Shown here piece by piece: positions 5,843 through 45,978 of a stretch of 64,000 nt of DNA. Numbering within the stretch: the first letter of the stretch is position 1; the number at the start of each line of letters is the position of its first letter. The notes beneath the pieces were generated by a model. That model made no database searches. It saw nothing but the letters and a program-made list of their open reading frames with translations, and was not told where the DNA came from. Both the position numbers and the translations under genes were made by a program. Source of the stretch: Deltaproteobacteria bacterium (GTDB taxonomy: Bacteria; Myxococcota; Myxococcia; Myxococcales; 40CM-4-68-19); NCBI GenBank assembly GCA_005879315.1, contig VBLC01000041.1, positions 1-64,000 of the forward strand, written 5' to 3'.

Positions 5843-6646
5843 GTGCGCTCGCTCCGGGGGAAGACGGCGGTCATCACAGGAGCGGCGAGCGGTATCGGGC
5901 GGGCGCTGGCCCATCGCTGCGCACGCGAAGGCATGCACGTGGTGCTTGCCGACCTCGACAAGCGCGGTTTGAAGAAGGCTGCGGAGGAAATTCCCGGCTC
6001 GCTGGCAGTTCGCACCGACGTGGCGAGCATGGGACAAGTGCAGGCGCTCGCTTCCAAAGCTTACGCGCGCTTCGGGGCGGTCCACCTGCTCTGCAACAAC
6101 GCCGGGATCGCCGAGCATGGCCCGCTCTGGGAGCTGCCTCTCTCCCGCTGGCGGCGCGTCCTCGCCGTCAATCTCTGGGGCGCCATCCATGGCTGCCTCG
6201 CCTTCGTCCCCCGCATGCTCGCGCAAGGCCAAGCCGCGCACGTCGTCAACACGGCCTCGATGGCCGGCCTGGTGACGCCGCCCTCCGCGGGCGCCTACAG
6301 CGTGAGCAAGCACGGCGTGGTCGCGCTCTCCGAAGCGCTGGTGCAGGACCTGGCTACGCGCGGGGCGCGCATCGGAGTCTCTGTCCTCTGCCCCGGCTGG
6401 GTACAGACTCGGATCGCGCGCTCGACCAAAGGAGCGGACGCGGTGATGCGCTCGCTGGTCGCGCACGGGCTTCCGCCGGAAATGGTGGCGGAGCAGACGC
6501 TGCGGGCGGTCCGCGACGACCGCTTCTACATTCTCACCCATCCGGCGATGGCGAGAGCGGTGCAGAGGCGCACCGAGGACATTCTCGCCGGACGCGCGCC
6601 GCCCCTGGCCTTGTTCAGGCGCCGCGCTCGATCGCAGGCAGGGTGA
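5843..6646 (+). CDS. Short-chain dehydrogenase/reductase (SDR)
   Basis: 267 aa. The Rossmann glycine motif is TGAASGIGRA (about 12-21), and ADLDKR at the end of strand 2 suggests NAD preference through its Asp. CNNAGIAEHG, the catalytic Ser in NTASMAG and YSVSK (about 153-157) complete the classical SDR active site. The GTG start at 5843 follows the previous stop by nine bases. The substrate is unknown; it looks like the broad-specificity SDRs near lipid and secondary metabolism. Its 3' end overlaps the opposing kinase gene by 32 bp. Confidence 0.92.
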   Translation: MRSLRGKTAVITGAASGIGRALAHRCAREGMHVVLADLDKRGLKKAAEEIPGSLAVRTDVASMGQVQALASKAYARFGAVHLLCNNAGIAEHGPLWELPLSRWRRVLAVNLWGAIHGCLAFVPRMLAQGQAAHVVNTASMAGLVTPPSAGAYSVSKHGVVALSEALVQDLATRGARIGVSVLCPGWVQTRIARSTKGADAVMRSLVAHGLPPEMVAEQTLRAVRDDRFYILTHPAMARAVQRRTEDILAGRAPPLALFRRRARSQAG

Positions 6647-7835
6647 CGGTGAAGCGCGTGCCGCGCCCTTTGGGCGAGACGGCCTCGATCGAGCCGCCGT
6701 GGCCTTCGACGATGCTGCGGCAGATGCTCAGCCCCAGCCCGCTGCCGCGCCGCGAGGACTTGGTCGAGGTGAAGGGCTGGAAGAGCCGCTGGGCGACGGC
6801 AGGATCGAGCCCCGACCCGTTGTCGGCCACCTCGATGAAGACGTGCGGCCCCTCGTGCCAGGTGCGAACGTTGACGGCAGGGTTGAGCACCGCCTGCACG
6901 GCGTCGGCGGCGTTGCCGAGCAGGTTGAGCAAGACCTGGGTGATCTCCGGGCCGCGGCCGCGCACCAGCGGCACCGCGCGCAGATCGCGCTCGAGCTTGA
7001 TGCCCTGGCGGAAGCGGTGCGAGAGCAGTTGCACCGCGGCAAGCACCGACTGGTTGATGTCGATCGGTTCCGGCTCGCCTCGAAGGGAGTAGCTCTCGAT
7101 GCCGCGTGCCAGCGCCTCCAGCTGGACTCCGGCCGCGCGGATGGTGGCGAGAGACTCCTCGGCCGACCCGGCCAACTCGGGCGAGGCGCGCAAGATGTCG
7201 CTCTTGAGGAGCTTCACCTCGTCGTCGGCGAAATTCCTCTTCACCGCCCGCTCGGCGGCGCGGGCCGCATCGAGCAGCCGCCCCATCTCCACCTCGAGCG
7301 CCGACGCGCCGGCGAGGAGCGGCTTCACCGCCTTGTTCAGCTCGTGCCCCAGGCTGGCCGAGAGCCGCCCCAGGGCTGCCATGTGCTCGGCGTCGATCAG
7401 CTCCTGATGGCTCGTTTTGAGCTGGTTGACGAGCTTCTCGTGCTCGTCGGAGAGCCGCTTGGTCTCCAACGCGCGCCGCACCGTCACGCGCATGTCTTCC
7501 ATGTCCCAGGGTTTGAGGACGAATCGATAAACCAATCCTTCATTGATTGCCTTCAATGCCACCGCGGTATCGGGAAAAGCGGTGAGCAGGACGCGCAGGG
7601 CCCGCGGCCGCAGCTCGCGCATGCGGGCGAGGAATTGCAGCCCCTCCATCTCCGGCATGCGCTGGTCGGTGATCACCAGATCGATGTCGCGCAACATGGC
7701 CACTTCCAGTCCCCGCTGCGCGGAAGTGGTGGCATCGACGTCGATGTCGGACTCGGACTCGAAAACGCGTCGGACGAGATTGAGGGCCATCGGCTCGTCG
7801 TCGACGACGAGAACACGGTAGGAGGGTTCGGGCAC
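6615..7835 (-). CDS. Receiver-histidine kinase protein (REC-DHp-HATPase)
   Basis: 406 aa, cytosolic, with no membrane segment. The N-terminal receiver (1-125) has VVDDEP, phospho-Asp in LVITDQRMPEMEG and Lys in VLKPWD. A helical DHp region follows with the phospho-His in LGHELNKAV (near 184). The HATPase_c domain has an N-box (LLNLLGNAADAV), G1 (DNGSGLD) and G2 (GSGLGLSICRSIV). Receiver-first kinases are usually switched by phosphotransfer from another kinase. The neighbouring divergent membrane kinase, 58 bp away, is an obvious candidate partner. GTG start, no strong Shine-Dalgarno. Confidence 0.92.
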   Translation of the reverse strand: MPEPSYRVLVVDDEPMALNLVRRVFESESDIDVDATTSAQRGLEVAMLRDIDLVITDQRMPEMEGLQFLARMRELRPRALRVLLTAFPDTAVALKAINEGLVYRFVLKPWDMEDMRVTVRRALETKRLSDEHEKLVNQLKTSHQELIDAEHMAALGRLSASLGHELNKAVKPLLAGASALEVEMGRLLDAARAAERAVKRNFADDEVKLLKSDILRASPELAGSAEESLATIRAAGVQLEALARGIESYSLRGEPEPIDINQSVLAAVQLLSHRFRQGIKLERDLRAVPLVRGRGPEITQVLLNLLGNAADAVQAVLNPAVNVRTWHEGPHVFIEVADNGSGLDPAVAQRLFQPFTSTKSSRRGSGLGLSICRSIVEGHGGSIEAVSPKGRGTRFTVTLPAIERGA

Positions 7836-7893
7836 GACAGAAATTTTACCAGATCATTGATTGCTGCCAAATCGGCCGGTATTCTTTTTCGAC

Positions 7894-10436
<2,543 letters not shown>

Positions 10437-10440
<4 letters not shown>

Positions 10441-11321
10441 GAGGCGTCCCAGCGCTGATCGATTCCGCCCTGCGGAACGCCTGGTCCTTCAAGGAGCTGC
10501 CCTGGCATCTCGAGGTGGACCCTGACCGCGGCAGCTTTCCGGAAGAGAGCTTCTTCGCCGGCGGGCTGCGCCCCTTTCGCGCGATGAGCAGCGCGCAGCG
10601 GCGCGCGTTCGTGTTCCGGGAGACCTGCTTTCATCTCTCCAATCTCCTCGCGGGCGAGCGGAGCGGCGAGCATCTGGTTGCGCAAGTGCTGGTGCTCACC
10701 GCGCGCGAGCGGCCGGGGCACCGGGAGTTCCTGGCACTGATGGCGCAGGAGGAGGCGAAGCACTTCCTCGCCTTGCAGAAATATCTCTCGGAGAAAGCGA
10801 GCGTGCTCTATCCGCCCTGCCGCCGGCTCTTCCTCGCGCTCGAGGCGGTGGAAGCGTGCGCCTCGCCCGAGGTCAAGCTGCTCGTCGGCCAGGTGGTGTT
10901 CGAGTGGACGGCGGCGTCGCTGGTCTCGACGCTCCTGGTGAAAGCGCGCGAGCCGCTGCTCTCCGCGGTCTTGCGGGTGAATCTCAGGGACGAGTCGCGC
11001 CATCTCGCCTACAGCTACGAGCTGCGCGAGCCGCTGGCGAAGGTCCTGACCGGCCGGGTGGCGCCGGAGATGGAGGACCTCGTCTTCGAGAGCGTGCGGG
11101 CGAGCGTCTCCGCGCTGCTCGCCGAGCCGGTGTGGAGCGAGCTCGGCCTCGAAGCGCGGGCCATGCGCCGCCACGCGCTCGAGCGGCTGGAGCGGCTCGG
11201 CGTGCTCGACCGCTACCGCAAGCTGGTGCCCGAGCAGCTGGCGCGCTGCGGTTTTCCGGTGGCGAAATTGACTCGCCGGCTGGGCAAGGGGCTGGTGAGG
11301 GGGCTTGTCGCGGATGGCTGA
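10437..11321 (+). CDS. Ferritin-like diiron protein (R2/AurF-like oxidase or oxygenase)
   Basis: 294 aa, all helical. It carries the carboxylate-bridged diiron pattern: Glu in LLAGERSGE (about 74/78), QEEAKH (E106xxH109), VVFEWT (E156) and RDESRH (E186xxH189). This matches the ExxH pairs of R2-like oxidases and AurF/CmlI-type N-oxygenases. The GTG start overlaps the kinase stop by 4 nt, and its stop overlaps the FAAL start by 8 nt. Context suggests it oxidises or desaturates an acyl or aminoacyl chain carried on the nearby ACP. The exact reaction is unknown. Confidence 0.75.
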
Positions 11322-13068
11322 TTCGATCGCCTCGCTGTTCCGCGCAGGAGATCCGGGCCGGGTCGCCGTCCATTTCCTGCGCAGCCAGTCCAAGGGCGGC
11401 TTTCGCGACGAGCAGATCACGCTGGGCGATTGGGTCCGGGGGGCGGATGCTTGCGCGGCCGCGCTGGAGGCGCGCGGGCTGCGCCGCGGCCAGCGAGTGC
11501 TGCTTTGCCTGCCGACGGGCCGCGCCTTCCTCGACGCCTTCCTCGGCGCGATCTCGATCGGGGTCGTCCCCGTGCCGCTGCCATCGCTGGAAGGATTCGC
11601 GCGGCCGGCCGCGTTCGTGAATCGGCTCACGAGCGTGGTGCAAGACGCCGCGCCCTCCGCCGTCTTCGCCGACCCGCGGACCGCCGCTCACCTGCGCCGC
11701 GCCGGGCTCCTCGGCGCGGACTTGCCCGTGATCGAACCGATGCCGCCGCGGGCTGGATCGGCTCCCGTGCCGCGGCCGCCCGAGGGCGACGAGGTCGCGC
11801 TCATCCAGTACACCTCGGGCAGCACCGGCACGCCGCGCGGTGTAGTGATCACCGCCGCAAACCTGGCGGCCAACATCGAAGCGATGGGCAAGGCGTTGCG
11901 GCTCACCTCCGCCGACCGCGTCGTCTCCTGGCTGCCGCTCTACCACGACATGGGGCTCATCGGCGGGCTGCTCGCGCCGGCCGCGCACGGCGCCACCTGC
12001 TCGCTGCTCTCGCCCCTCGAGTTCATGCTCCATCCGGCCAGCTGGATGCGGGCCGCCTCGCAGGCGCGCGCGACGCTGACCGTGGCGCCGAACTTCGCCT
12101 ATGGCCTGGTGGCGCGGAAGGTCGCCGACGAAGATCTGCGCGGCCTCGATCTCTCCTCGCTGCGCGCTGCGATCAACGGCGCCGAGCCGGTCGACGTTGC
12201 CACCGCCGAAGCTTTCTGCGCGCGCCTCGCCCCGATGGGGTTCTCGCCGCGCAGCTATTTTCCCGTCTACGGCCTCGCCGAATCGACCCTCTCCGTCGCC
12301 TTCCCGCCGCTCGGGCGCGGCCTCAAGGTCGATCACGTGCGGCGCGACGAGCTGGCCAAGGGTCGCGCCGTGACCGCCGAGCCGGGCCCCGGCACGATGC
12401 GGATCGTCTCGGTCGGCCGCGCGCTCGAGGGCCACAGCATCTCCATCGTCGAAGCCGTCGATCACGCGCCGCTGCCGGAGCGGAGGCTGGGCGAGATCTG
12501 GGTGCAGGGGCCGAGCATCTCGCCCTGGTACTTCGACAAGCACGAGCCGGTGCGGTCGCGCCGGCATTCGCTGCGCACCCAGGACGTGGGATACCTCGCC
12601 GACGGCGAGCTCTATGTCGTCGATCGCCTCAAGGATCTGGTGATCGTCGCGGGCCGGAGCTACTCGCCCTCCGACATCGAGCGCGCCGCCGAGGGCGTGG
12701 AGGGAGTGCGCGCGGGCCGCTCGGTGGCTTTCGGCGTCGCCGACGAAGACCGCGCCACCGAGGCGCTCATCCTCGTCGCCGAAGTGCAACCGCGCAGCCG
12801 CGCCGAGCTGCGCCGGCTGTCCGATGCCGTGCGCGAGCGGGTGACGGACCAGATCGGCCTTTCACCCGCCGACGTGCGACTGCTCAAGCCGGGAGCGCTG
12901 GCGCGGACCTCGAGCGGAAAGCTGATGCGGCGCGACGCCCGCGACCGATATCTCCACGGCGGGCTCGACGGCGGCCAGGCGCTGCGGCCGTTCTTCCCGC
13001 AGCGGATTCTCGACGCCGCCCGCGCCACGGTGATGCGCTTTCTCGCGCGGCGTCTCGCTCAGCGCTGA
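11314..13068 (+). CDS. Fatty acyl-AMP ligase (FAAL)
   Basis: 584 aa, adenylate-forming. The P-loop is IQYTSGSTGTPRGV, then LPLYHDMGL, typical of FAAL/FadD32-type enzymes, NGAEPVD and YGLAESTLSV. The hinge/A8 region LKDLVIVAGRSYSPSDIE and a C-terminal SGKLMRR with the catalytic Lys follow. FAALs activate fatty acids to acyl-AMP and load an ACP rather than CoA, and an ACP is encoded about 1.6 kb away on the opposite strand. ATG at 11314 overlaps the diiron gene. Its 3' end overlaps the convergent crotonase-like gene by 10 bp. Confidence 0.93.
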   Translation: MADSIASLFRAGDPGRVAVHFLRSQSKGGFRDEQITLGDWVRGADACAAALEARGLRRGQRVLLCLPTGRAFLDAFLGAISIGVVPVPLPSLEGFARPAAFVNRLTSVVQDAAPSAVFADPRTAAHLRRAGLLGADLPVIEPMPPRAGSAPVPRPPEGDEVALIQYTSGSTGTPRGVVITAANLAANIEAMGKALRLTSADRVVSWLPLYHDMGLIGGLLAPAAHGATCSLLSPLEFMLHPASWMRAASQARATLTVAPNFAYGLVARKVADEDLRGLDLSSLRAAINGAEPVDVATAEAFCARLAPMGFSPRSYFPVYGLAESTLSVAFPPLGRGLKVDHVRRDELAKGRAVTAEPGPGTMRIVSVGRALEGHSISIVEAVDHAPLPERRLGEIWVQGPSISPWYFDKHEPVRSRRHSLRTQDVGYLADGELYVVDRLKDLVIVAGRSYSPSDIERAAEGVEGVRAGRSVAFGVADEDRATEALILVAEVQPRSRAELRRLSDAVRERVTDQIGLSPADVRLLKPGALARTSSGKLMRRDARDRYLHGGLDGGQALRPFFPQRILDAARATVMRFLARRLAQR

Positions 13069-14630
13069 CCGAGCACGCGCCGTGCGCTGCGGGCGATCGG
13101 CGACTTGCTCCCGGCAGCGCAGCGGAGAAGGCCGCCGCGCACGACCGGAAATCCGCAGAGCAGATGAGCGAGCAGATCCGCCTGCGAAGGATGAACCAGG
13201 GTACCGTCGTCGAGCGCCCTGATCGCTTCCCTGGCGAGCGCCTCCACGGCGCGTCCGGCGAGATTCTTTTGCCTGCGCCGGGCCTTCCTCGAGCCCAGAC
13301 GGCGAGCCACTGCCTTGGGGAGGCGGAAGCCGAACTCCAACAACTCGCTGCGGACCTGCGCCGAGGGTGCCTCGCGGAGAGCGGCCGTGAGAGCATCGAG
13401 GAGCCGTTTGCTGACGAACCGCCCGCGCGCGCGCGACACCACGGGCGCGAAGCCAGCCTGTTCGAGAAACTGGAAGAGCGGCGCGCCGGCGCGCCAAGGC
13501 ATCTCCCTGTTCGTTGGAACGAGCTCGAGGGGAGGCACGTCCTCGCCGGCCAAGGGAAGAAGCGCGCTGCAATCGGCATCTGGTTGCAGCGAGCCGACCG
13601 CGCAAGTGAGCACGCCGCGGATCTTCTTCGCCGCGAAAGCGATGTCCGCGCCGGCGGCGGGACCCAACTGGACGCCAGGCAGCGGCCGCAGCCGGAAGAG
13701 GCGCGCGAGAGCCGGCAGGGAACGATCGACATGCACCTTGAGTCGTTCGGGCCGCCGGTACAACGCGCTGCCGATGGCGTGCGCTTTCGCTGCCTGGCGG
13801 ATGAAGAAGAAAGACATCGCGCGCTCGGAATCGCGCGTCCCCACGGTGCGCCAGAAGCCCGCCAGCTCGTCGCGCAGTCCGTCTTCGAGCCGGTAGCCGC
13901 GCCGCAGCGTCAAGCGGGATAGCCGAAGGCATTCGCGCGCCAGCTGGCGCTCTGGCCCGGGCAGATCGGCGAGCCGAGGCAGCGGTCGCTGCGGCGGACG
14001 CCGCAGTTCGCGCTTCGGCCAGCCGCGCGCACGCAGGCCGGAGAGGAATCCGGGCAGCGCCTTGCGCAGATCGGGCGCGAGCCGATCGATGAGACCGAGC
14101 CGCAGCGCGCGCCTCGCATCGAGCCGCTCGCCGAGCAAGAGCCGCAGGCCGGCGCCGAGGCCGAGCAGCCGCGGCAGCCGCTGGGTCGCCCCGAAGAGGG
14201 GAATGAAGGCGTAGTCGCGCAGCTCGGGCATGTAGAAGTGCGTGTCGTAGCTGTCGCGCGCGATCCGGTAGTCGCAAGTCAGCGCCAGCTCCAGACCGCA
14301 GCCGTAGCAGTTGCCCTCGATGGCGGCGATGGTCGGCACCGGCGCGGCGGCGAGGCTCAGGTAGCAGCGCTGCAGCGCGTGTGCCCGCTCCATCGCGGCC
14401 TCTTCGCTGTGCGAGGAAGCGGCGAGCAGGAGCCCGACGCCGTTGATGAAGCTGCCGGGCTTCTTGCTCTGCACCACCACCGCGCGGGCGCCGGCCTCGA
14501 GGCCGGCCTCGAGCTCGCGCTCGAGCTCGAGCGCGACCGCGGGCGTGAAGACGTTGACCGAGGAGCCCCGGGTGTCGAGCGTCAGGTAGAGGATTCCGCC
14601 GCGCAGGGCCCCGGTGCAGCCCGCGGTCAT
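13059..14630 (-). CDS. Crotonase/FadJ-like protein with a degenerate dehydrogenase half
   Basis: 523 aa. Residues about 1-190 form an enoyl-CoA hydratase fold with oxyanion loop SFINGVG and both catalytic Glu positions present (YGCGLELALTCDYRIA and MPELRDYAF). The C-terminus resembles the 3-hydroxyacyl-CoA dehydrogenase C-terminal domain (RFVSKRLLDAL; LLAHLLCGFPVVRGG). The intervening Rossmann region lacks a recognisable GxGxxG. Length is well below the usual 700 or so of FadB/FadJ. It is coupled to the ACP gene by an ATGA overlap, so its substrate may be acyl-ACP. Confidence 0.75.
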   Translation of the reverse strand: MTAGCTGALRGGILYLTLDTRGSSVNVFTPAVALELERELEAGLEAGARAVVVQSKKPGSFINGVGLLLAASSHSEEAAMERAHALQRCYLSLAAAPVPTIAAIEGNCYGCGLELALTCDYRIARDSYDTHFYMPELRDYAFIPLFGATQRLPRLLGLGAGLRLLLGERLDARRALRLGLIDRLAPDLRKALPGFLSGLRARGWPKRELRRPPQRPLPRLADLPGPERQLARECLRLSRLTLRRGYRLEDGLRDELAGFWRTVGTRDSERAMSFFFIRQAAKAHAIGSALYRRPERLKVHVDRSLPALARLFRLRPLPGVQLGPAAGADIAFAAKKIRGVLTCAVGSLQPDADCSALLPLAGEDVPPLELVPTNREMPWRAGAPLFQFLEQAGFAPVVSRARGRFVSKRLLDALTAALREAPSAQVRSELLEFGFRLPKAVARRLGSRKARRRQKNLAGRAVEALAREAIRALDDGTLVHPSQADLLAHLLCGFPVVRGGLLRCAAGSKSPIARSARRVLGQR

Positions 14631-14908
14631 TTCTGCTCGGTGAGAAAGAGCGCGAGCGACTCGACCGTCAGCTCGGCAGGGTCGTTGACGCTGGCGATCC
14701 ACTCCGGCAGGAACACCGGCCTGCCGAGCTCCTTCTCCAAGAGCACGGTGAGCTCGACCACCTTGAGCGAGTCGAGGCCCAGGTCGGCGAGGATCGACGC
14801 CTGCGGCGTGATCCTCTTCCGCAGGCTCTTCGCCACCAGCGGCTCGAGCGCCGCGCGGACCGCGGGGAAGAGCTCGGGCTCGCGCTTGCGTGAACGTCGC
14901 GCGGTCAT
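14627..14908 (-). CDS. Acyl carrier protein
   Basis: 93 aa. The phosphopantetheine site is LGLDSLKVVEL, with Ser near residue 47. A basic N-terminal extension (TARRSRKRE) precedes the four-helix ACP fold. The ATG at 14908 is chosen because it starts the domain and sits just below the palindromic promoter region. The stop overlaps the crotonase-like gene (ATGA). With the convergent FAAL and diiron genes it makes a self-contained acyl activation and tailoring set. A dedicated ACP, separate from the housekeeping one, is inferred. Confidence 0.9.
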   Translation of the reverse strand: MTARRSRKREPELFPAVRAALEPLVAKSLRKRITPQASILADLGLDSLKVVELTVLLEKELGRPVFLPEWIASVNDPAELTVESLALFLTEQK

Positions 14909-14980: not shown

Positions 14981-15394
14981 ATGAGCTCTTCCCAGCGGGC
15001 AGCGCGGGCGTTGTTCCTCGCCGCCACCGCGGCGCACGGGCTCGTCGTCGCCGGGCTCGCTCATGCCGAAGAGCATCATCGCGAGGATGTCTCCGAAACG
15101 GCCCAAGCCTGGAGAGCGGCAGGCGATCCGCTCGATGCCCTTGCCTTCGCTCTGACCCACGCGCACCAGCGTCCCTCGGGGCCCGCGGAGCGCAAACACT
15201 CGCACGGGCCGGGGCGTCATGGCTCGGGCAGCCTCTCGCACCTCGCCGTCGCACTCCACGCCGCCCCGCAGCTGCCGCAGCTGGAAAGGGCAGCTCCGCA
15301 ACACAGGCCGCCCATCGCTGCCGTGGCGCCGCGGCGCGCGACGCTCCGGTATCTCATCGTCGAGCAGGCGCAGGGGCCGCCGCCCGGCTGTTGA
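14981..15394 (+). CDS. Small histidine-rich exported or membrane-anchored protein
   Basis: 137 aa. A hydrophobic segment (residues about 8-28, ending AGLAHA) reads as a signal peptide or anchor. The rest is unusually rich in His (HAHQRP, HSHGPGRHGSG, LSHLAVALHAA), which suggests metal binding. I do not recognise a family. It lies 43 bp upstream of the TonB-dependent receptor gene and is likely co-transcribed with it, so a role in metal or metal-complex uptake is a reasonable inference. Confidence 0.6.
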   Translation: MSSSQRAARALFLAATAAHGLVVAGLAHAEEHHREDVSETAQAWRAAGDPLDALAFALTHAHQRPSGPAERKHSHGPGRHGSGSLSHLAVALHAAPQLPQLERAAPQHRPPIAAVAPRRATLRYLIVEQAQGPPPGC

Positions 15395-15437: not shown

Positions 15438-18044
15438 ATGCACCCGATTTCGCGGGGGCGCTGCCATGCGCTCTTGCTCGCGTTCGCCATCCCATCGCTC
15501 GCGAGGGCGGAGGAGTTGGCGCTGCCCAGCGGCTTCGCGCCGCCGCGCCTGATCGAGCGCGTCGAGGCCCGCTATCCGGACGAGGCGCGCAGAGCGGGCT
15601 TGAGCGGCACGGTGCTCCTTCAACTGGTGGTCGACGTCGACGGCTCGGTCCGCGAGGCACAGGTCGCGCGCGGTGCGGGGCACGGATTCGATGAGGCCGC
15701 CCTCGAAGCTGCCCGCAAGCTTCGCTTCGAGCCGGCCAGGCAAGGCGGCGCACCCATTTCGGTGCAGCTCAACTACGAGATCCATTTCCTGCTCACGCCG
15801 GAGCTGCCGACGCTGCACGACGTGGCAAGGCCGGCCGGCTCGGCGCCGGAGGAGGCTGGCAAGCAGAAGTCTTCTCGCGGCCCTTTCGAAGTGACGGTCG
15901 AGGGCGAACGGCCTTTCACCGCCGCAAGCGCCCGCGTGGTGCGCGACCGCGACTTCCTCTTGCGGCCGCGGATCACGCCGGAGGACATCCTCCGGGTCGT
16001 CCCCGGTCTGGTGCTCGCGCAGCACCAGGGCGGGGGCAAGGCCGACCAGCTCTTCCTGCGCGGATTCGACGCCGACCACGGCACCGACGTGTCGGTCAAC
16101 CTCGACGGCATTCCCGTCAACATGCCCTCGCACACGCATGGGCAAGGGTTCGCCGATCTGCACTTTCTCATTCCCGAAGCCATCGAGCGTATCGAGGTGG
16201 TGAAGGGCCCTTACGACGCGCAATACGGAGACTTCGACACCGCGGGCGCGGTCAACCTGGTCACGCGCGACGTCTTCGACCGATCACAACTGACCGTGCA
16301 AGGAGGAGTCTTCCCCACCGCACTCGCCGCGCACGACGTCGAAGGCGGCCCGCCGCGCGGCACGAGCTGGCGCGCCCTCGGCATTGCGGCGCCGGCAATG
16401 GAGAAGGTCCATCCCTGGTTCGCCGCCGAGGTCTCCGGCGCGCAGGGCCCCTTCCTGCACGGCGAGCGGCTGCAGCGCTACAACCTTTTCGCCAGCTCTT
16501 CGTTCGAGCTGTCGCCCAGGGCGCAGCTCTCGGTCTTGGGCCTGGCCTATGCCTCGAGCTGGATCGGTTCGGGACAGATCCCCTCGCGGCTGATCGAGCA
16601 GGGCTTTCTCGACCGCTACGGCGCCATCGACCCGAGCGAAGGAGGCGACACCCAGCGGCAGCAGCTCATCGTCTCGCTGCGCGCGCGGCCTGATGACAGC
16701 TCGTCGTTCACCGCGGCGGGCTCGGTCCTCCGCTACGGGCTGACCCTGTTCAACGACTTCAGCTTCCAGGCCAAGGATCCGGTGAACGGCGACGAGATCG
16801 AGCAGGACGATCAGCGCACGTCGATCTTCGCGAATTTGAAATACGAACGGCGGGATCTGGGATTTCTCAACAGCACTTTGGGGGTCCAGCTGCGGAGCGA
16901 CGACGTCACCGCCTCCCTCTTCAAGGTCCACAAGCGTGCGCGCCTCGCCCGGTGCCTCGAGATCGAAAACCCCTGCGTGAGCACCAACGATCGCCAGACA
17001 GACGCTGCCGCTTATCTGCAGGCGGACCTGCGTCCTCTGGCCTGGCTCCGCCTGGTGCTCGGCCTGCGCCACGACCTCTTCGAGTTCGACGTGCGATCGC
17101 TCAAGCCCGGCTTTGGCCTCGACGCGGAGCATCCCGATCCGCTGCCGCCGGCGGTGCAGCGCAGCATCACCAGCCCCAAGGCGAGCCTCGTGCTCACGCC
17201 GCTGCCGCAGCTCGACCTCTACTTCAATTACGGGCAGGGGTTTCACTCCAACGACGCGCGCAGCGCCGTGGAGACGGGAGGGAGCGGGGCGCTGCCGCGC
17301 GCCATCGGCTACGAGATCGGAGCTCGCACCCGGCTGCTCGACGAACGCCTCGACCTGGCCGCCGCGCTCTGGCGACTCGACCTCGCCAGCGAGCTGGTGT
17401 GGAGCGGCGACCAGGGAGGCACTTCGCCCTCCGACCCGACGCGGCGGCAAGGCATCGATCTGGAGGGACGCTATCGCATTCTCCCCTGGCTCTTCGCTGA
17501 CCTCGACGTCTCGCTCGCCAATGCGCAGTACCGGCAGGACTTCGGCAACGGCCACGCCGTCGCGCTCGCGCCGCCGCGGATCATCACCGGCGGGCTGACG
17601 GCGCGGCATCCGTCCGGCGTCTCGGCGTCGCTGCGCGTGCGGCACATCGGCCCGCGGCCTGCGTCGCAGCTGGAGGCGAGCAGCCCGCTCGATCCGGCGA
17701 ATCCTGCAGGGCCGCGCGTGCCGCCCTGTACGCCCGCCCTCGACGCGAACGATCCGGTGCAGTCACGCTGCTTCCTGGTCGCCGATGGATACACGATCTT
17801 CGATGCGGTGCTCGGCTACACCACGCCGCGCTGGTCGCTCTTCCTCATCGCCGAGAACCTCACCAACAGCGCCTATCGCGAGGCGCAGTTCGGCAACGTC
17901 TCGCAGGTCATCGCGCCGCCGGACGGCCGCACCGTCTCCTCGAAGGGTGCGCCGTGGACCCCGGAGGGGCATGCCGTGCAGGACATCCATTACACGCCGG
18001 GCAATCCGTTCGGCGCGCAGCTTGCGGCGACGCTCTACTTCTAG
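15438..18044 (+). CDS. TonB-dependent outer-membrane receptor with N-terminal TonB-like domain
   Basis: 868 aa. The signal peptide is about 1-22 (IPSLARA). Residues about 30-120 form a TonB C-terminal-type domain (YPDEARRAGLSGTVLLQLVV; DEAALEAARKLRFEPA). The plug follows (ILRVVPGLVLAQHQGGGKAD; LRGFDADHGTDVSVNLDGIP; IERIEVVKGPYDAQYGDFDT), then a 22-strand-type barrel ending in an aromatic residue (ATLYF). The plug loop MPSHTHGQG is His-rich. The substrate is not determined; the His-rich neighbour hints at a metal. ATG at 15438 gives the complete signal peptide. Confidence 0.92.
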   Translation: MHPISRGRCHALLLAFAIPSLARAEELALPSGFAPPRLIERVEARYPDEARRAGLSGTVLLQLVVDVDGSVREAQVARGAGHGFDEAALEAARKLRFEPARQGGAPISVQLNYEIHFLLTPELPTLHDVARPAGSAPEEAGKQKSSRGPFEVTVEGERPFTAASARVVRDRDFLLRPRITPEDILRVVPGLVLAQHQGGGKADQLFLRGFDADHGTDVSVNLDGIPVNMPSHTHGQGFADLHFLIPEAIERIEVVKGPYDAQYGDFDTAGAVNLVTRDVFDRSQLTVQGGVFPTALAAHDVEGGPPRGTSWRALGIAAPAMEKVHPWFAAEVSGAQGPFLHGERLQRYNLFASSSFELSPRAQLSVLGLAYASSWIGSGQIPSRLIEQGFLDRYGAIDPSEGGDTQRQQLIVSLRARPDDSSSFTAAGSVLRYGLTLFNDFSFQAKDPVNGDEIEQDDQRTSIFANLKYERRDLGFLNSTLGVQLRSDDVTASLFKVHKRARLARCLEIENPCVSTNDRQTDAAAYLQADLRPLAWLRLVLGLRHDLFEFDVRSLKPGFGLDAEHPDPLPPAVQRSITSPKASLVLTPLPQLDLYFNYGQGFHSNDARSAVETGGSGALPRAIGYEIGARTRLLDERLDLAAALWRLDLASELVWSGDQGGTSPSDPTRRQGIDLEGRYRILPWLFADLDVSLANAQYRQDFGNGHAVALAPPRIITGGLTARHPSGVSASLRVRHIGPRPASQLEASSPLDPANPAGPRVPPCTPALDANDPVQSRCFLVADGYTIFDAVLGYTTPRWSLFLIAENLTNSAYREAQFGNVSQVIAPPDGRTVSSKGAPWTPEGHAVQDIHYTPGNPFGAQLAATLYF

Positions 18045-38736: not shown

Positions 38737-45978
<7,242 letters not shown>

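Follow-up and report, generated by a model that had tools for sequence, protein, structure and literature searches.

A conserved seven-gene block in a myxobacterial genus joins a ferritin-like diiron protein and a fatty acyl-AMP ligase to an acyl carrier protein and a FadJ-derived crotonase

The window analysed here is a stretch of 64,000 nucleotides, positions 1-64,000 of contig VBLC01000041.1 (80.7 kb), from a soil myxobacterium (recorded as a deltaproteobacterium) whose genome of 4.4 Mb is 97.6% complete (G000). An earlier note on this DNA described, at 10437-14908, a set of four genes for fatty-acid tailoring: a diiron protein, a fatty acyl-AMP ligase (FAAL), a FadJ-like crotonase and an acyl carrier protein (ACP). 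The coordinates and the family matches bear out all four, Table 1. However, that extent is too narrow, as the linked block spans about 5843 to 14908 and includes two histidine kinases and a short-chain dehydrogenase/reductase (SDR).

The diiron and FAAL genes on the plus strand converge with the crotonase and ACP genes on the minus strand, and the strands and overlaps agree with the two convergent operons proposed before, which are tightly packed. The GTG start of the diiron gene overlaps the stop of the hybrid kinase by 4 nucleotides, an arrangement repeated at three further loci (L058, L059, L061). The FAAL start overlaps the end of the diiron gene by 8 nucleotides, and the ACP end overlaps the crotonase start by 4; all three overlaps recur in relatives. 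Intact orthologs of the four genes are found in three genomes of the same genus with 65-80% identity. The ratio of nonsynonymous to synonymous substitution rates (dN/dS) across the four is 0.08-0.34, i.e. they are under purifying selection (diiron 0.11-0.18, FAAL 0.13-0.26, crotonase 0.18-0.34, ACP 0.08-0.23). Given the intact orthologs and these ratios, the four are real genes. A motif scan of the whole 80.7-kb contig found no ketosynthase, condensation or second adenylation motif, so the absence of a polyketide synthase (PKS) or nonribosomal peptide synthetase (NRPS) also stands.

Table 1. Genes of the conserved block, with window coordinates and the matches or motifs that identify them.
Gene product	Position	Strand	Evidence and remarks
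Short-chain dehydrogenase/reductase (SDR)	5843..6646	+	adh_short E 4e-49; outer edge of the conserved block
Response regulator fused to histidine-kinase ATPase domain	6615..7835	-	Response_reg E 7e-22, HATPase_c E 2e-25
Membrane hybrid sensor histidine kinase	7894..10440	+	Pfam: HisKA, HATPase, REC, HisKA, HATPase; alternative start TTG 7861
Ferritin-like diiron oxygenase	10437..11321	+	Proposed ligands E74, E106, H109, E156, E186, H189
Fatty acyl-AMP ligase (FAAL)	11314..13068	+	AMP-binding E 6e-55; FAAL models; FAAL-specific insertion
FadJ-derived crotonase	13059..14630	-	ECH_1 E 2e-20, residues 11-187 only; best NCBIfam model FadJ
Acyl carrier protein (ACP)	14627..14908	-	PP-binding (PF00550) E 1e-6, above cut-off; GLDSL phosphopantetheine site; ATG at 14908

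To follow the block in other organisms we used 147 genomes of the source class, which includes Pyxidicoccus and Myxococcus and, judged by those names, is the Myxococcia. The order SDR, response-regulator kinase, hybrid kinase, diiron, FAAL, crotonase, ACP is common to four genomes of the genus (G000, G001, G003, G004) as far as their contigs reach; the G001 contig stops inside the crotonase gene, and in G003 the genes are spread over three contigs (C50, C239, C304). Co-occurrence of the four enzyme genes in relatives had been set beforehand as a test, and they do co-occur, with the ACP adjoining the crotonase in every relative whose contig reaches that position. The set of four is not complete, however, because the two kinases and the SDR track the enzymes across genomes. 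G001, G003 and G004 are the only genomes with SDR orthologs (72-73% identity) in this block. Orthologs of the response-regulator kinase (71%) are in the block in G001 and G004 and split across two contigs in G003, while G002, G005 and G006 have no match at E <= 1e-60. The N-terminal sensor region of the hybrid kinase is matched at 70-71% only where the block itself is present, in four genomes of the genus. For the SDR, the response-regulator kinase, the sensor region of the hybrid kinase, the diiron protein and the crotonase, two more genomes of the same genus, G005 (96% complete) and G006 (91%), contain no close homolog. The seven genes are inherited as a unit. G003 and G004 also encode a membrane fatty-acid desaturase (PF00487, E 1e-24) upstream of the ACP; no similar desaturase was found in G000 by a search for which these two genomes served as positive controls.

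The crotonase resembles a FadJ with the NAD-binding part deleted. In FadJ, two glutamates and the histidine of the HFFSP motif are catalytic. E114 and E136 of the crotonase align with the catalytic glutamates of Escherichia coli FadJ, and both are kept. None of the four family members aligned with the E. coli protein has the GGGLMGGG (GxGxxG) NAD-binding block of FadJ, and no histidine aligns at the HFFSP position. According to the family profile, the match covers FadJ residues 13-291, 437-540 and 595-671 and skips 291-437; the C-terminal domains are remnants of those in FadJ. The hydratase domain has the lowest dN/dS, 0.11-0.23; after residue 295 it is 0.22-0.53, still below 1. Because both the NAD-binding block and the histidine are lost, the enzyme is predicted to be a hydratase/dehydratase only. 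The family named in the earlier note is thus right, but this is not a full FadJ.

The FAAL has FAALs as its best PDB matches (phmmer, E 3e-84) and, compared with E. coli FadD, an insertion of about 21 residues. Such an insertion is a feature of the N-terminal domain of FAALs, and fatty acyl-CoA ligases are without it (PMC11837247). We infer from these features that the enzyme loads an ACP rather than coenzyme A (CoA). In the ACP the GLDSL motif with the phosphopantetheine serine lies inside the PP-binding domain. The ACP also has an inserted FLPEWIAS-type segment, with the pattern PV-x-L-x-x-W-[IV]-A-S, which is common only to the ACPs of related clusters and, in an ACP alignment, is absent from two other FAAL-linked ACPs of G000. 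The FAAL insertion, the PDB matches and the GLDSL site together support the proposal of fatty-acid activation and a dedicated ACP.

The diiron protein has the features of the ferritin-like diiron oxygenase superfamily, i.e. a helical bundle in the AlphaFold model (pLDDT 88.4, pTM 0.88), two ExxH-type pairs and two further carboxylates, with a predicted metal site. The six proposed ligands (Table 1) are invariant in 15 bacterial sequences, and also in an alignment of 11 sequences, nine of them relatives encoded on viral-collection contigs. The motifs are EExxH and NxxDExxH, and the fourth carboxylate, a glutamate, is kept, which predicts a site of two histidines and four carboxylates. The N of NxxDExxH is constant in the genus; most other relatives have V or I there. 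By phmmer the single sequence has no match in the PDB, and its relatives came from the profile and the predicted structure only. Foldseek with the model against the PDB ranks CmlI first (E 2.8e-4, TM-score 0.56), followed by R2lox, AurF, R2 and ADO. In most nonheme diiron hydroxylases the ligands are two histidines and four carboxylates, and CylC-type halogenases have QExxH and HxxDExxH motifs with three histidines (PMC12101540). Since EExxH, NxxDExxH and the fourth glutamate differ from the three-histidine sites of CylC and AurF, hydroxylation or desaturation is more likely than N-oxygenation or halogenation. The fold class of the R2/AurF-like enzyme described before therefore holds, and the AurF or CylC type of site does not.

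Some other diiron proteins related to this one have neighbours of their own. In two Myxococcaceae loci (L062:9195-12661 and L063:8785-10786) relatives of about 390 residues lie near a [2Fe-2S] ferredoxin or a ferredoxin reductase, which hints at the class of electron donor; the second locus also has a piece resembling the C-terminus of a membrane fatty-acid desaturase. AurF-superfamily diiron proteins related to that of the window are encoded on the IMG/VR contig L161 (4842-6903) and on L154, L157 and L164. On L161 the gene directly after the diiron gene encodes an acyl-ACP-desaturase-type protein (PF03405, E 4e-53), and a PhyH-type dioxygenase comes next.

Outside the genus the ACP, crotonase and FAAL occur together with another oxygenase. 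Six genomes, all from one Myxococcaceae genus group (G094, G097, G104, G108, G109, G114), encode full-length relatives of the crotonase. A scan of genome contigs, the sole search beyond Myxococcota, found the crotonase in Pyxidicoccus caerfyrddinensis, Pyxidicoccus fallax, Myxococcus sp. RHSTA-1-4 and one Polyangiaceae metagenome-assembled genome (MAG); it used two strict peptide patterns that may miss distant relatives, and its five loci are all myxobacterial/deltaproteobacterial. The gene order in the Myxococcaceae and Polyangiaceae loci is a divergent cytochrome P450, ACP, crotonase, SDR and FAAL, with no diiron gene; the SDR accompanies the core in Myxococcaceae but not in the Polyangiaceae MAG. 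Seven further genomes (six Myxococcaceae and the MAG) thus pair the core with a P450, either by itself or together with an SDR. Two of the P450s were compared and are 50% identical. Against 22 other FAALs, those of all these clusters fall into a single group (support 83/92; one change, 0/500 shuffles). In the remaining genomes of the class nothing matches the C-terminal region of the crotonase, and the best matches are to the hydratase domain, as for an ordinary FadJ. No PKS was seen near the core in the relatives.

Several other FAAL loci were considered as homologous clusters and rejected, as they contain no crotonase of this type: C105 in G000, L151, L152, L153 and the fusion proteins of L149 and L150. 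The fusion proteins (L149:7809-10610 and L150:8154-10943, both Myxococcaceae) have about 930 residues, in which a FAAL follows an ACP-like N-terminus. G000 itself has two more FAAL-ACP loci, both read by eye. One, at C62:1-12514 (L074), contains a methyltransferase and a long PKS-like open reading frame (ORF) of 2219 residues; the other, at C105 (L073), contains a ketosynthase-like protein and an FAD-dependent-looking protein.

On this evidence we consider it probable, with moderate confidence, that the locus encodes a CoA-independent, ACP-tethered pathway of fatty-acid oxidation and (de)hydration. From its family features, the FAAL would adenylate a free fatty acid and load it on the dedicated ACP. 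The diiron oxygenase, with electrons from an unlinked ferredoxin, would then oxidise a C-H bond of the acyl-ACP by hydroxylation or desaturation. The crotonase would add or remove water at the alpha-beta position of the acyl-ACP, or isomerise it. Alignment shows that its dehydrogenase half no longer has the NAD-binding part; it therefore cannot continue beta-oxidation, and with no dehydrogenase the chain would not be shortened. A further step would release the product, which would be either a fatty acid (beta-hydroxy or unsaturated) or a lipid derived from one. The alkene-like lipid suggested earlier is still conceivable, with no positive support. In G003 and G004 the membrane desaturase would add to the enzyme set, and in the Myxococcaceae and the Polyangiaceae MAG the P450 (plus the SDR in Myxococcaceae) would replace the diiron enzyme. 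In this pathway the ACP-crotonase-FAAL core stays constant and the oxygenase, diiron or P450, is exchangeable; this exchange supports the view that the crotonase acts on a group introduced by an oxygenase. As for the linked kinases, they probably either regulate the operon or respond to its substrate or product.

Several observations weigh against this pathway. The match of the diiron protein to AurF (PF11583, E 8e-5) scores 22.4 bits, below the Pfam gathering cut-off of 29.6, which longer relatives from viral-collection contigs pass, and its reaction class rests on ligands and fold. Among the genomes searched its gene is restricted to a single genus, and there is no ferredoxin beside it. The block holds no thioesterase, reductase or transferase that would explain release. 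The AlphaFold model of the crotonase, made from six sequences, has low confidence (pLDDT 50.6), so the domain loss is a matter of alignment. Support for the FAAL grouping is only moderate. Finally, G002 lacks the same block genes as G005 and G006 but is just 61% complete, which weakens that absence.

The same genes could instead serve ordinary remodelling of membrane or storage lipids with no diffusible product, as the membrane desaturase in two relatives and the ferredoxin and desaturase-like fragment near the Myxococcaceae diiron proteins would allow. Specialised pathways more typically show such a patchy distribution within one genus and have a FAAL-ACP pair of their own, and we regard remodelling as unlikely. 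A self-contained signalling unit is rather unlikely too. Here the enzymes would make a modified fatty acid, e.g. a 2-enoic or 3-hydroxy acid as in the diffusible signal factor (DSF) system, and the co-inherited kinases would sense it. RpfF has a crotonase fold. It is the DSF synthase, acting on 3-hydroxyacyl-ACP, and RpfC is the sensor. The whole basis for signalling is that the hybrid kinase is translationally coupled to the diiron gene and that the sensor region, the response-regulator kinase and the SDR are confined to the four block-bearing genomes, with no close homologs found in G002, G005 and G006. Such coupling is equally compatible with ordinary pathway regulation, and two-component genes are abundant in myxobacteria, with 119-215 first-look candidates for the response-regulator kinase per genome. 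Moreover, RpfC is not among the best NCBIfam matches and the crotonase is closest to FadJ. We hold it doubtful that the island makes and senses its own oxidised fatty-acid signal, with the hydratase-only FadJ descendant, dedicated ACP, FAAL and exchangeable oxygenase as its source and the coupled hybrid kinase as its receptor.

Supply of a starter unit appears quite improbable. The oxidised acyl-ACP would be passed to a PKS or NRPS encoded elsewhere, e.g. that of the C62 cluster, much as CylA/CylB/CylC and JamA/JamB/JamC feed PKS lines (PMC11837247, PMC12101540). The PKS-like cluster on C62 has its own FAAL and ACP, however, and neither the contig nor the surroundings of the core in relatives offer a PKS. 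Very improbable is a CylC-like halogenase or an AurF-like N-oxygenase acting on the ACP-bound chain. The FAAL and ACP neighbours, as for CylC, the distant AurF-superfamily match and CmlI as the top fold in the PDB are in its favour; both activities were set aside on the ligand motifs, which have neither the Q of QExxH nor a third histidine.

Compared with known systems, the CoA-independent pathway proposed here works like CylABC and JamABC and is a member of neither. Like the halogenation modules CylA/CylB/CylC (cylindrocyclophane) and NocL/NocM/NocO, it has a FAAL, a dedicated ACP and an AurF-like ferritin-type diiron enzyme acting on acyl-ACP (PMC12101540). Unlike these modules, it has a two-histidine, four-carboxylate site, no PKS, an added hydratase-only FadJ derivative and linked kinases; the similarity of the diiron protein to CylC is at superfamily level only, and the published CylC motifs set it apart. 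Judged by gene content, the FAAL and ACP, and in G003 and G004 also the desaturase beside the ACP, resemble the JamA/JamB/JamC alkyne cassette, but G000 has no such desaturase and the diiron and crotonase genes are foreign to that cassette. The polyyne clusters (caryoynencin, collimonin, cepacin, protegencin) likewise have a FAAL, an ACP and conserved genes without PKS or NRPS. They are defined by two further desaturases, a thioesterase and a rubredoxin beside jamABC (PMC8406139), whereas the block has at most one desaturase and neither of the other two.

The crotonase shares with the beta-oxidation alpha subunit FadJ/FadB the crotonase domain, both catalytic glutamates and remnant C-terminal domains, but with the NAD-binding block deleted, no histidine at the HFFSP position and a dedicated ACP adjoining, it is not bifunctional. 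As in RpfF/RpfC, a crotonase-fold enzyme expected to act on acyl-ACP is found near a hybrid sensor kinase. Here, though, the crotonase is FadJ-derived and accompanied by a FAAL, an ACP and an oxygenase, and the kinase is not recognised as RpfC; this comparison was judged by the best NCBIfam models (FadJ and generic kinases), not by direct sequence comparison. That no named pathway has exactly this set agrees with our literature search, which found no published description of it and mostly did not extend to subscription papers; the closest analogues are CylA/B/C, JamA/B/C and the polyyne clusters free of PKS and NRPS.

Elsewhere in the window, a small histidine-rich ORF without a Pfam match (14981-15394) precedes a TonB-dependent receptor (15438-18044) whose own N-terminus bears a TonB C-terminal domain (residues 44-117). 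Further on, an ORF of 2410 residues (38746-45978) is followed by a response-regulator-type protein and, judged from this neighbour, may be a giant hybrid kinase.

In summary, a small recurrent core, consisting of an insertion-bearing ACP, a hydratase-only FadJ derivative and a FAAL, took different oxygenases in different myxobacterial lineages. The core suggests that oxidised or unsaturated fatty acids can be made by a route separate from CoA-based beta-oxidation and from polyketide lines. The linked sensor kinases of the diiron version make the signal-lipid hypothesis testable, and as named Pyxidicoccus and Myxococcus strains carry the core, its product can be sought directly.
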